DNA of 64,000 nt. Origin: Kineococcus sp. NBC_00420 (lineage in GTDB: Bacteria > Actinomycetota > Actinomycetes > Actinomycetales > Kineococcaceae). The notes under the pieces were generated by a model. It was not told where the DNA came from, did no database searches, and saw nothing but the letters and a program-made list of their open reading frames with translations. The position numbers and the translations under genes were made by a program. Location of the stretch: assembly GCF_036021035.1 (NCBI RefSeq), contig NZ_CP107930.1:5170006-5234005 (forward strand), written 5' to 3'. Every line of letters begins with the position of its first letter. Position 1 is the first letter of the stretch. Of the stretch, positions 35,848-40,467 are shown one piece after another.

Positions 35848-35916
35848 CGAGCCCGGGTAGTAGCCGCTGGACCACGTGGGCCAGGTCACCCCGCGGGGTG
35901 GTTGGGCGAGCGACGG

Positions 35917-35967
35917 CCAATTAGGTAACATGGGTGTTGTGCAAATGGTGAGGCCGACCTTAGTTGG
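35917..35967 (+). promoter_or_regulatory. sufR promoter with an imperfect inverted repeat
   Basis: The -10 TAACAT (35926-35931) ends 7 nt before GTG 35939. Around it, CCAATTAGGT (35917-35926) and ACCTTAGTTGG (35957-35967) are near-complementary (one mismatch and one bulge). SufR represses its own operon in other bacteria, so this could be its operator; the two arms are 30 bp apart, which is wide. Confidence 0.4.
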
Positions 35968-36685
35968 TGAGGACGCACGGACCCGTACCCGGGTGCGGGC
36001 GACCGTCGCCGAGTTCGGTCCCGTCACCGCCGCCCGCATCGCCGAGCTGCTGGGTCTCACGGTCGCCGCCGTCCGGCGCCACCTCGACCCGATGGTGGCT
36101 GAAGGGGTGCTCGAGACCCGGGAGCCGCGTGCGGACGCCCGCCGCGGCCGGGGCCGTCCCGCCAAGGACTACGTGGTCGGCTCGGCCGGGCACGACGCCC
36201 TGCCGGCCGGCTACGACGACCTCGCGCTCTCGGCCCTGGCCTACCTCGCCGAGGTCCAGGGACCGCAGGCCGTCGAGGACTTCGCGAACCGGCGCTTCGC
36301 CGCGCTGGAGCACTCCCTCGCCGGTCTGGAGGGGACGGTGCCCGAGCGGGTGCAGGCCCTCGTCGAGGCGCTGGCCGCCCAGGGCTACTCGGCCAGTTCG
36401 CGCCCGGCGGCGCGGGGAACAGCCACCGAAGGGCTCCAGTTGTGCCAGGGGCACTGCCCGGTGCAACGGGTCGCCGAGTCCTTCCCGCAGCTGTGCGAGG
36501 CCGAGCGGCGCACGTTCGAGCGGATCCTCGGCACCCGTGTCCAGCGGTTGGCCACGCTCGCGCACGGCGACCACGTCTGCACCTCGTTCGTACCGCTCGA
36601 GGCGCTGACCCAGAACCAGCACGACCCGCAAGACGACACCGTGGCCACCGCCACGGGGGACCAGACGGAAGGACGACGCTCGTGA
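35939..36685 (+). CDS. sufR: SufR, iron-sulfur-responsive repressor of the suf operon
   Basis: 248 aa. An N-terminal winged helix ([23 protein letters not shown] in part, ending in [11 protein letters not shown]) is followed by a ligand domain. Four cysteines sit in LCQGHCPV, then QLCEAE after 12 residues, and HVCTSF near the C-terminus; these fit the Fe-S ligands of SufR proteins. The loaded repressor would shut off suf genes when clusters are plentiful. The leaderless GTG at 35939 is preferred to ATG 35930, which lies inside the -10. Its stop overlaps the sufB start (GTGA). Confidence 0.92.
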
Positions 36686-38118
36686 CCGACACCGTGTCCG
36701 ACACCCAGACCACCGCGGGCCCGCCCGAACTCGAGGGCATGGGCAAGTACGCCTACGGCTGGGCGGACTCCGACGTCGCCGGCTCGACCGCCCGCCGCGG
36801 GCTCTCCGAGGACGTCGTGCGCAACATCTCCTCGCTCAAGAACGAGCCCGAGTGGATGCTCGCCCTGCGCCTCAAGGCCCTGCGCCTCTTCGGCCGCAAG
36901 CCGATGCCGAACTGGGGTTCCGACCTCAGCGGCATCGACTTCGACAACATCAAGTACTTCGTCCGCTCGACGGAGAAGCAGGCCACCAGCTGGGACGAGC
37001 TCCCCGAGGACATCAAGGCGACCTACGACCGCCTGGGCATCCCCGAGGCCGAGAAGCAGCGCCTCATCGCCGGCGTCGCCGCGCAGTACGAGTCCGAGGT
37101 CGTCTACCACCAGATCCGCGAGGACCTGGAGGAGAAGGGTGTCATCTTCGTCGACACCGACACCGGTCTGCGCGAGCACGAGGAACTCTTCCGCGAGTAC
37201 TTCGGCACCGTCATCCCGGTGGGCGACAACAAGTTCGCGTCGCTGAACACCGCGGTGTGGTCCGGCGGCTCGTTCATCTACGTGCCCAAGGGCGTCCACG
37301 TCGACATCCCGCTGCAGGCCTACTTCCGGATCAACACCGAGAACATGGGCCAGTTCGAGCGCACGCTGATCATCGCCGACGAGGACTCTTACGTGCACTA
37401 CGTGGAGGGCTGCACGGCGCCGATCTACCAGAGCGACTCGCTGCACTCCGCGGTCGTCGAGATCATCGTGAAGAAGAACGCCCGCGTGCGCTACACGACG
37501 ATCCAGAACTGGTCGAACAACGTCTACAACCTGGTCACCAAGCGCGCCACGGCCGCCGAGGGCGCGACCATGGAGTGGGTCGACGGGAACATCGGGTCCA
37601 AGGTCACGATGAAGTACCCCGCGATCTACCTCATGGGCGAGCACGCCAAGGGCGAGACGCTGTCCATCGCCATGGCCGGTGAGGGTCAGCACCAGGACGC
37701 CGGCGCCAAGATGGTCCACGCGGCGCCGTACACCGCGAGCTCGATCATCTCGAAGTCGATCGCCCGCGGCGGTGGCCGCACGTCCTACCGAGGGCTCATC
37801 CAGGTCCTCGAGGGCGCGCACCACTCGGCCTCCACGGTGCGCTGCGACGCGCTGCTGGTCGACACCATCTCCCGCTCGGACACCTACCCCTACAACGACA
37901 TCCGCGAGGACGACGTCGTCATGGGTCACGAGGCCACGGTCTCGAAGGTCTCCGACGACCAGCTCTTCTACCTCATGAGCCGCGGCATGGCCGAGGACGA
38001 GGCCATGGCGATGATCGTGCGCGGGTTCATCGAACCCGTCGCGCGGGAACTGCCCATGGAGTACGCGCTGGAACTCAACCGCCTCATCGAACTGCAGATG
38101 GAAGGGGCCGTCGGCTGA
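36682..38118 (+). CDS. sufB: Fe-S cluster assembly protein SufB
   Basis: 478 aa scaffold subunit of the SufBCD complex. It shows the family core: [18 protein letters not shown] (in part), [40 protein letters not shown] and the C-terminal [18 protein letters not shown]. No intein is present, unlike some mycobacterial sufB genes. GTG 36682 overlaps the sufR stop; GAAGGA lies 11 nt upstream. sufD starts on the last base of its stop codon. Confidence 0.95.
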
Positions 38119-39338
38119 TGACCCTGCTCAACGAAGCCCTCGACGAGAGTCGCGCCGCTCAGCAGGGCGACACCACCGGGGCTCACAGCCACGGTGGCGG
38201 GACCGTCCCCGAGGCGTCCCGCGCCGAGCGCAGGACCTCCTTCGACGTGGCCGACTTCGTCGTGCCCACGGGTCGCGAGGAGGAGTGGAAGTTCTCGCCG
38301 CTGCGTGAGTTCGGCCCGCTCTTCGAGGCCGTGGACGCGGTCGCCGGGAACGCTGCGAGCGTCGAGGTCTCCGGCCCCGCCGTCGTCGAGCACCGCACCG
38401 GCACCCTCGCCGAGGTCGGCGCGGGGTCGGCGTTCGTGCCGGGTGACCGCGCCGCGGCCGCCGGCTGGAGCTCCACCGAGGTCGCGCACCTGGTGAAGGT
38501 GCCGGCCGAGGCCGAACTCGACGAACCCGTCCTCGTCACCATCCGCGGGGAGGCCGGTCGCACCACCGCCGGTCACGTCGTGGTCGAGACGGGGCACCAC
38601 GCCAAGGCGCTCGTCGTGCTCTCGCACCTGGGCGGCGGCGCGCACCGCGGCAACGTCGAGGTCCGCGCGGGCGACGCCTCCGAGGTCACGGTCGTGTCGC
38701 TGCAGGAGTGGGACGCCGACGCGGTCCACATCGGCCAGCACGACGTGCGGGCCGGGCGCGACGCCCGCGTCCGCCACATCAGCGTCTCGCTGGGCGGCAA
38801 GGCCGTCCGGATCTCGGTGAACCTCAGCTACGCGGGCCCCGGCGGCGACGCCACCGCGCTCGGCGTCTACTTCGCGGGTGCCGGTCAGCACACCGAGCAC
38901 CGCCAGTTCGTCGACCACGAGGCCGTCAACTGCAAGAGCTACGTGGAGTACAAGGGCGCGCTGCAGGGCCAGGGCGCGCACGCCGTCTGGATCGGTGACG
39001 TCCTCATCCGCGCCGCGGCCGAGGGCACCGAGACCTACGAGCTGAACCGCAACCTCGTCCTGACCGAGGGGGCGCGCGCCGACTCCGTGCCGAACCTCGA
39101 GATCGAGACCGGCCAGATCGTCGGCGCCGGCCACGCGTCCGCGACGGGTCGCTTCGACGACGAGCAGCTGTTCTACCTGCAGTCGCGCGGCATCACCGAG
39201 GACGAGGCCCGTCGACTGGTGGTCCGCGGGTTCTTCGCGAGCATCGTCGACAAGATCGGGATCCCGGACGTCTCGTCGCGTCTCATGACCACCATCGAAC
39301 GCCAGCTCGCCGAGCGAGAAACCGTTGAGGAGAACTGA
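38118..39338 (+). CDS. sufD: Fe-S cluster assembly protein SufD
   Basis: 406 aa SufB paralogue. N-terminal EEWKFSPLREFGPLF, the beta-helix middle and the C-terminal QLFYLQSRGITEDEARRLVVRGF support the call; an invariant His used in SufBD cluster formation is likely in HTEHRQFVDHEA. The ATG shares its A with the sufB TGA (TGATG). There is a His-containing N-terminal tail (HSHGGG) of no known meaning. Confidence 0.94.
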   Translation: MTLLNEALDESRAAQQGDTTGAHSHGGGTVPEASRAERRTSFDVADFVVPTGREEEWKFSPLREFGPLFEAVDAVAGNAASVEVSGPAVVEHRTGTLAEVGAGSAFVPGDRAAAAGWSSTEVAHLVKVPAEAELDEPVLVTIRGEAGRTTAGHVVVETGHHAKALVVLSHLGGGAHRGNVEVRAGDASEVTVVSLQEWDADAVHIGQHDVRAGRDARVRHISVSLGGKAVRISVNLSYAGPGGDATALGVYFAGAGQHTEHRQFVDHEAVNCKSYVEYKGALQGQGAHAVWIGDVLIRAAAEGTETYELNRNLVLTEGARADSVPNLEIETGQIVGAGHASATGRFDDEQLFYLQSRGITEDEARRLVVRGFFASIVDKIGIPDVSSRLMTTIERQLAERETVEEN

Positions 39339-40097
39339 ATGTCCACCCTGGAGATCCGCGACCTGCACGTGACGGTCGACGAAGCCGACGGCTCCGTGAA
39401 GGAGATCCTGCGCGGGGTCGACCTCACCATCAACTCCGGTGAGGTCCACGCCGTGATGGGGCCCAACGGTTCCGGCAAGTCGACGCTGGCCTACTCGATC
39501 GCGGGCCACCCCAAGTACACCGTCACCGGCGGCAGCGTCACGCTCGACGGCGAGGACGTCCTCGCGATGACCGTCGACGAGCGCGCCCGCGCCGGGATGT
39601 TCCTCGCGATGCAGTACCCCGTCGAGGTCCCCGGGGTCACCGTGTCGAACTTCCTGCGGACCGCGAAGACCGCGATCGACGGCGAGGCGCCCAAGCTGCG
39701 CACGTGGGTCAAGGACGTCAAGCAGGCGATGGACGACCTGAAGATGGACCCCACCTTCGCCGAGCGCAACGTCAACGAGCACTTCTCCGGCGGCGAGAAG
39801 AAGCGCCACGAGATCCTCCAGATGGAGCTGCTCAAGCCCAAGATCGCGATCCTCGACGAGACCGACTCCGGCCTCGACGTCGACGCGCTGAAGATCGTCT
39901 CCGAGGGCGTGAACCGCTCGCTCTCGACCGTGAACCCGGGCGTCCTGCTCATCACGCACTACACGCGGATCCTGCGCTACATCACGCCGCAGTTCGTGCA
40001 CGTGTTCGTCAACGGCCGGGTGGCCGAACAGGGTGGTCCGGAACTGGCCGACGCCCTCGAGGAATCCGGTTACGACCGCTTCCTCACCCACGCCTGA
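39339..40097 (+). CDS. sufC: SufC ATPase
   Basis: 252 aa ABC ATPase that drives SufBCD. Walker A GPNGSGKST, the SufC-type signature FSGGEKKRHEILQ, Walker B IAILDETDSGLDVDALK and H-loop ITHYTRIL are intact. The ATG follows the sufD stop without a gap; GAGGAG stands 7 nt upstream. No Rieske ferredoxin gene separates sufD and sufC. Confidence 0.96.
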   Translation: MSTLEIRDLHVTVDEADGSVKEILRGVDLTINSGEVHAVMGPNGSGKSTLAYSIAGHPKYTVTGGSVTLDGEDVLAMTVDERARAGMFLAMQYPVEVPGVTVSNFLRTAKTAIDGEAPKLRTWVKDVKQAMDDLKMDPTFAERNVNEHFSGGEKKRHEILQMELLKPKIAILDETDSGLDVDALKIVSEGVNRSLSTVNPGVLLITHYTRILRYITPQFVHVFVNGRVAEQGGPELADALEESGYDRFLTHA

Positions 40098-40107
40098 GGA
40101 GGCCCTG

Positions 40108-40467
40108 GTGAGCGAGACAGAAACTTCGGCGACCACCACGTCGGCCAGCGGGCCGACGCCGGCGGCCATCGCCGACATCGAGGAAGCCCTCAAGGACGTC
40201 ATGGACCCCGAGCTGGGGATCAACGTCGTCGACCTGGGCCTCATCTACGGGTTGACGGTCTCCGACGACAACGTCGCGACCATCGACATGACGTTGACCA
40301 GCGCGGCCTGCCCGCTGACCGACGTCATCGAGGACCAGACGCAGCAGGCCCTCGTCGACGTGGTGGCCGACCACCGCATCAACTGGGTGTGGATGCCGCC
40401 GTGGGGTCCCGAGAAGATCACCGACGACGGCAAGGACCAGTTGCGGGCGCTCGGCTTCAACGTCTGA
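40108..40467 (+). CDS. sufT: SufT-type DUF59 iron-sulfur assembly protein
   Basis: 119 aa. After a Thr/Ser-rich tail of about 22 residues comes a DUF59/MIP18 domain: IEEALKDVMDPELGINVVDLGLIYG, given here as LKDVMDPELGINVVDLG, the conserved Cys in TSAACPLTDVI, and a C-terminal VWMPPWGPEKIT. SufT helps mature Fe-S proteins, mainly under high demand. GTG 40108 has TGAGGAGG 5 nt upstream. It directly follows sufC; the cysteine desulfurase sufS and the scaffold/shuttle sufU that normally lie between are absent. Confidence 0.92.
   Translation: MSETETSATTTSASGPTPAAIADIEEALKDVMDPELGINVVDLGLIYGLTVSDDNVATIDMTLTSAACPLTDVIEDQTQQALVDVVADHRINWVWMPPWGPEKITDDGKDQLRALGFNV

Follow-up and report, generated by a model that had tools for sequence, protein, structure and literature searches.

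Kineococcus has a split SUF operon, with sufS-sufU displaced from sufRBDC-T and apparently lost in some species

In Kineococcus sp. NBC_00420 the SUF system is divided between two places on the chromosome. The stretch of DNA analysed here, referred to as the window (64,000 nucleotides, positions 5,170,006-5,234,005 of the single contig of 5,434,400 bases that makes up this genome), encodes the scaffold part of a SUF system of the ordinary actinobacterial kind, i.e., a known system that has been split, and an intact, adjacent sufS-sufU pair is found about 0.7 Mb from sufC. We consider it about 90% probable that this displaced, but still dedicated, SufS-SufU pair supplies the split SUF scaffold.

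The suf genes of the window are arranged in the order sufR-B-D-C-T, all on the + strand. The first gene, sufR (35876..36685, start codon uncertain), encodes a homologue of the SUF repressor, which scores 80.7 bits against TIGR02702 (cut-off 178.8) and 27.1 bits against MarR_2 (cut-off 27). Next are the genes of the scaffold subunits SufB (36682..38118; TIGR01980 718.3 bits, cut-off 346.4), the start codon of which was picked by inspection and overlaps the end of sufR, and SufD (38118..39338; TIGR01981 244.4 bits, cut-off 222), followed by that of the scaffold ATPase SufC (39339..40097; TIGR01978 331.3 bits, cut-off 212.8). SufB, SufD and SufC each score above the curated cut-off and their genes are adjacent on one strand, which identifies a SUF scaffold operon. 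The last gene, sufT (40108..40467), encodes a DUF59-type SUF-associated protein that carries the Fe-S assembly domain PF01883 above the cut-off (72.3 bits, cut-off 23.5) and scores 76.1 bits against TIGR02945 (cut-off 143.4). Because SufR, which displays only a bare MarR_2 match, and SufT fall below the NCBIfam cut-offs of the nearest SUF models, their names rest partly on position.

The sufC stop codon, TGA, is followed by 10 bases (40098..40107, + strand) and then by the sufT start codon, GTG, at 40108, with no gene in between; a GAGGAGG sequence, the ribosome-binding site of sufT, overlaps the sufC stop. In most compared loci this junction is the place of sufS-sufU. An earlier note on this DNA had described the short junction with its ribosome-binding site, the missing sufS and sufU, and a usual actinobacterial order sufR-B-D-C-S-U-T, all of which agree with the data. 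Among the best 80 of 571 confirmed places in a scan with a SufD alignment, i.e., in a sample of near relatives, the order C-S-U-T was found in 65 named loci (63 by script, to which L116 and L129 were added because their matches to sufC and sufS overlap). Another 11 of these best 80 loci, five from Kineococcus, two from Quadrisphaera and four from Arthrobacter/Pseudarthrobacter, have the order C-T and contain neither a SufS nor a SufU match, and contig ends interrupt four more (L059, L066, L084 and L103).

The family was sampled by 12 genomes, 11 of them belonging to the genus, with SufC proteins that are 86-96% identical to that of the window. All of them have sufT next after sufC in a locus that contains neither a SufS nor a SufU match, and in none is sufS-sufU located between the two genes, an arrangement that the earlier note had named as a sign of an assembly error. 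Because the C-T order is found in all 12 family genomes, it is not an assembly error; that sufS-sufU in reality reside between sufC and sufT is so improbable as to be negligible, also considering that the genome of the window consists of one 5.43-Mb contig and that all five named Kineococcus loci, which are from the same 12 genomes, display the C-T order.

The earlier note had left it undecided whether sufS and sufU were lost or moved, and a search of the rest of the genome revealed that they have moved. The pair is found at C1:4,502,040-4,503,816, where sufS (4,502,040-4,503,371, start chosen by inspection) scores 529.6 bits against TIGR01979 (cut-off 475.1) and sufU (4,503,385-4,503,816) scores 153.9 bits against TIGR01994 (cut-off 92.5). 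In a profile search, the genome yielded one SufU match and one SufS above the cut-off; the one NifU_N match is at 4,503,394-4,503,756, with the best Aminotran_5 matches directly before it. The assignment of SufS to the TIGR01979 family is based on the score and on the catalytic GHHCA motif, present as RVGHHCA, and that of SufU to the TIGR01994 family on the score.

At this distant locus (read from the stretch L022, base 1 of which is 4,494,000), the end of a DUF1684 gene and sufS share 4 bp. Two genes that match the model of NtaA/DmoA-family FMN monooxygenases (403 and 211 bits, the second below the cut-off of 279.7) are located upstream of the pair and a GNAT gene downstream. The monooxygenase-type genes and the DUF1684 gene (L022:4754-9817) perhaps indicate a link to the use of organic sulfur, and a rhodanese-domain gene is found further along (L022:12436-12843). 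A scan for SufR sites, using three motif forms with at most two mismatches and covering four stretches (upstream of sufR, of LLM1, of sufS and of sufS in L213), showed only matches with two mismatches, also upstream of sufR.

The motifs to which the reported functional residues of the pair would map are retained. The SufS motifs RVGHHCA and HAHD as well as the SufU motifs CGD, GC and RVKC are found in nine of nine Kineococcus rows; the roles of these motifs are taken from PMC10216065 and PMC8300815, and their mapping to Cys40 and His354 was made in this analysis. The GHHCA motif appears in a table passage of PMC8300815 as the catalytic motif of SufS, and a part of PMC10216065 describes how Cys40 of Mycobacterium (M.) tuberculosis SufU receives the sulfur and how His354 of SufS takes over a zinc ligand position. 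In the same source a zinc ligand of SufU is printed as Cys31, and only once as Cys131. In Kineococcus SufU the position nine residues ahead of CGD is not occupied by a cysteine, and RVKC fits Cys131. We therefore tentatively take Cys131 as the residue intended, and the zinc-ligand match would hold only on this reading.

Gene content, positions, kept residues and vertical descent (see below) are the observations on which the proposed mechanism builds. In this reading the sufS-sufU genes were displaced as an intact pair in an ancestor of Kineococcus, and they are now located elsewhere on the same chromosome. SufS would take sulfur from cysteine and pass it to zinc-bound SufU and further to SufBC2D, as established for SufS-SufU of M. 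tuberculosis, so that the separated pair presumably still serves the SufBCD of the window, and expression of sufSU would no longer be set by the suf operon promoter.

The proposal in the earlier note that sulfur is obtained from an enzyme encoded elsewhere is thus literally true, and the enzyme is most simply the organism's own SufS together with SufU. The suggestion that this enzyme is perhaps an IscS is improbable for the genome of the window (G000): given an intact SufS-SufU pair no IscS is needed, and the two IscS/NifS-type desulfurases of this genome, both below the TIGR03402 cut-off, are not singled out as SUF donors. It does fit three relatives, discussed below, in which neither SufU nor a full-score SufS was detected. 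A stronger version, in which a class I (IscS/NifS-type) desulfurase supplies the assembly complex of G000 and the distant SufSU have another role, would be in line with the presence of two such enzymes, encoded beside nadC-type/NadB-like and mnmA-type genes, and with the three relatives that keep sufBDC without detectable SufSU. We regard this version as very unlikely, because a complete, adjacent SufS-SufU pair is found in nine of the 12 family genomes, with the key motifs in nine of nine; furthermore, a passage of the review PMC8300815 reports no physical interaction between M. tuberculosis IscS and SufU. Because G000 harbors two NifS/IscS-type enzymes and one SufS/CsdA-like enzyme (253.6 bits, below the cut-off), SufS may not be the sole donor. 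Relatives with no detectable SufSU keep sufBDC, which suggests that another donor can function in the genus. SufSU may therefore be inessential in Kineococcus, where three relatives apparently live without the pair.

The adjacent SufS-SufU pair of the nine family genomes is located away from sufC in each case, i.e., on another contig or more than 0.6 Mb distant. SufU was found in nine of the 12 genomes, and SufS above the cut-off in nine of the 11 within the genus set and not in the twelfth genome, that of K. xinjiangensis. Two places are occupied by the pair. At locus B, behind DUF1684, it is found in seven of the nine genomes (G000, G001, G002, G004, G005, G006 and G010), and at a second shared place, locus A, in the other two, K. 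rubinsiae and K. siccus. Only 46 bp separate the matches to DUF1684 and GNAT in K. rubinsiae (G007), and neither SufS nor SufU is matched there, which constitutes an empty locus-B site. No clean empty site was found at locus A, the flanks of which lie apart in G000.

In a tree of SufS comprising 80 rows drawn from 95 loci (a quick method with SH-aLRT values only) all nine Kineococcus rows fall into a single clade (SH-aLRT 98), which is next to the in-operon SufS of a Kineosporiaceae metagenome-assembled genome (MAG), L060 (93); only one other row in the tree carries a Kineosporiaceae title. Two records (L097, L112), titled Xylanimonas cellulosilytica 352_XCEL and Sanguibacter keddieii 250_SKED, have a SufS that groups with that of Schaalia odontolytica, and are possibly mislabelled genomes. 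In a tree of SufD, SufC and SufT combined (19 chosen rows), K. xinjiangensis is outermost, followed by K. rubinsiae with K. siccus, and then by G003 with Kineococcus sp. TRM81007 as opposed to K. vitellinus and six others; these forks are all starred. The SufS tree likewise splits K. rubinsiae and K. siccus from the other seven.

As judged from these trees, SufSU is relocated, not imported, and descended vertically; a gain from outside the family is unsupported by the SufS tree. Most simply, the pair would have left the operon ahead of the diversification of the genus, would have moved once between loci A and B, and would have been lost twice. The two different places of SufSU in the genus and the absence of the pair from three genomes, including the outermost branch, could alternatively reflect loss of sufSU and its later regain by horizontal transfer. 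We assign this scenario a low probability, if a trace higher than that of an IscS-fed complex in G000, because the Kineococcus SufS adjoins an in-operon Kineosporiaceae SufS (93) and its internal splits match those of the combined tree; loss and regain may have occurred within the genus or family.

Three of the 12 family genomes, those of K. xinjiangensis (G011), Kineococcus sp. TRM81007 (G009) and G003, keep sufBDC-T and display no detectable SufSU. None of the three yielded a TIGR01994 match, and TRM81007 and K. xinjiangensis yielded no NifU_N match. No SufS above the cut-off was found, the best scores being 123.5 bits in G003, 258.7 bits in G009 (a SufS/CsdA-like protein) and 178.4 bits in G011. 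When both SufSU loci were used as DNA queries, the matches listed in these three genomes for the SufSU part, limited by length in one search and by E-value in the other, were the CsdA-like gene of G009 and otherwise only short, weak ones. The locus-B region of TRM81007, on a contig of 632 kb, contains an acetyl-CoA synthetase gene followed by a methyltransferase gene, and DUF1684, SufSU and GNAT are all unmatched in the 16 kb read. The G003 assembly is composed of 1060 pieces, and the contig with its locus B stops at the synthetase gene such that the site is not readable there. The locus-A flank is partly present in all three genomes, with no SufSU in the stretches read. The most simple reading of these three absences would be two losses of SufSU, one in K. 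xinjiangensis and one in the lineage of G003 and TRM81007.

A possible replacement donor is found in each of the three genomes, which harbor two NifS/IscS-type desulfurases each. For all of these the top model is TIGR03402, and all score below its cut-off (best 442.8 bits, cut-off 530.75). The six aligned proteins carry GSAC, the class I catalytic cysteine motif. One kind of desulfurase is encoded beside nadC-type and NadB-like FAD-binding genes in G000, G009 and G011, and the other kind has an mnmA-type gene as its neighbour in G000 and G009. SufE (PF02657) was found above the cut-off in all 17 chosen genomes, each with the cysteine of ECQSP (L223:5119-6464; L191-L207), and is thus not a replacement confined to the SufSU-less genomes. 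A SufS/CsdA-like desulfurase was also rejected as a general replacement, because such a protein is found in G009 (258.9 bits) and nothing of similar score in G003 or G011. The SufE gene of G009 adjoins a rhodanese gene. K. xinjiangensis has a class V aminotransferase (L182:2393-3451; 168 bits to the SufS model and 150 to EgtE, both below the cut-offs), which in the alignment has no cysteine at the SufS catalytic position.

The donor in the three SufSU-less genomes is probably an IscS/NifS-type desulfurase, perhaps acting through SufE. We see roughly even odds for the full scenario, in which SufSU was lost twice after leaving the operon and SufBC2D came to run on an IscS/NifS-type enzyme co-opted from NAD or tRNA-thiolation functions, possibly with SufE in between. 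A point against such a donor is that, according to PMC10216065, SufE from E. coli failed to activate SufS of M. tuberculosis. Neither this observation nor the IscS data from M. tuberculosis rules out IscS-SufE or direct transfer.

The M. tuberculosis operon sufRBDCSUT (SufR Rv1460, SufS Rv1464, SufU Rv1465), as outlined in portions of PMC10216065 and PMC8300815, is composed of the same genes with the same order R-B-D-C and T, and its SufS and SufU share their key motifs with those of Kineococcus, except for the Cys31/Cys131 ambiguity in PMC10216065. In contrast to M. tuberculosis, sufS-sufU of Kineococcus is about 0.7 Mb outside the operon and in three relatives was not found. In Arthrobacter/Pseudarthrobacter and Quadrisphaera, too, sufT comes directly after sufC, and SufS and SufU were located elsewhere in five of the six genomes tested (suf loci L070, L085, L090, L109, L114 and L125; distant SufSU L216-L220); in the sixth, a MAG of 2.9 Mb, no SufS or SufU was found. 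The SufS of these groups is not close to that of Kineococcus in the tree, and at least in Arthrobacter the genes therefore probably became split independently of those in Kineococcus. The SufS rows of Quadrisphaera and Arthrobacter/Pseudarthrobacter group on long branches (97), maybe as a result of an artefact or of transfer.

Systems of the SMS type are often found without a dedicated SufS-SufU pair. The SMS, a SUF-like minimal system composed of SmsB-SmsC (PMC12442378), has in common with Kineococcus a scaffold of the SufB-SufC type, to which Kineococcus adds SufD. Kineococcus SufB scores 718 bits against TIGR01980 as compared to 269 bits (cut-off 650) against SmsB, i.e., the state is derived rather than minimal.

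Among the titles and abstract starts of the open-licence literature searched, no description was found of a split or missing sufSU in Kineococcus or related groups, nor of the apparent loss of the dedicated sulfur supply within the genus. In the parts of the M. tuberculosis literature that bear on this supply, the suf operon is described as essential and a tenfold knock-down of sufS spares aerobic survival (PMC10848736), insight into SufS-SufU is offered as guidance for the design of drugs (PMC10216065), and a question close to that of whether an IscS-type enzyme can feed SufBCD is listed as open for M. tuberculosis IscS (PMC8300815). Kineococcus has unlinked SufSU and then apparently lost the pair in some species, which makes the genus a natural experiment around similar SufBCD, one in which it becomes testable whether an IscS-type enzyme can feed this scaffold. 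If the scenario outlined for the three SufSU-less relatives is true, these would be hybrids that combine a SUF scaffold with an ISC-type sulfur source.
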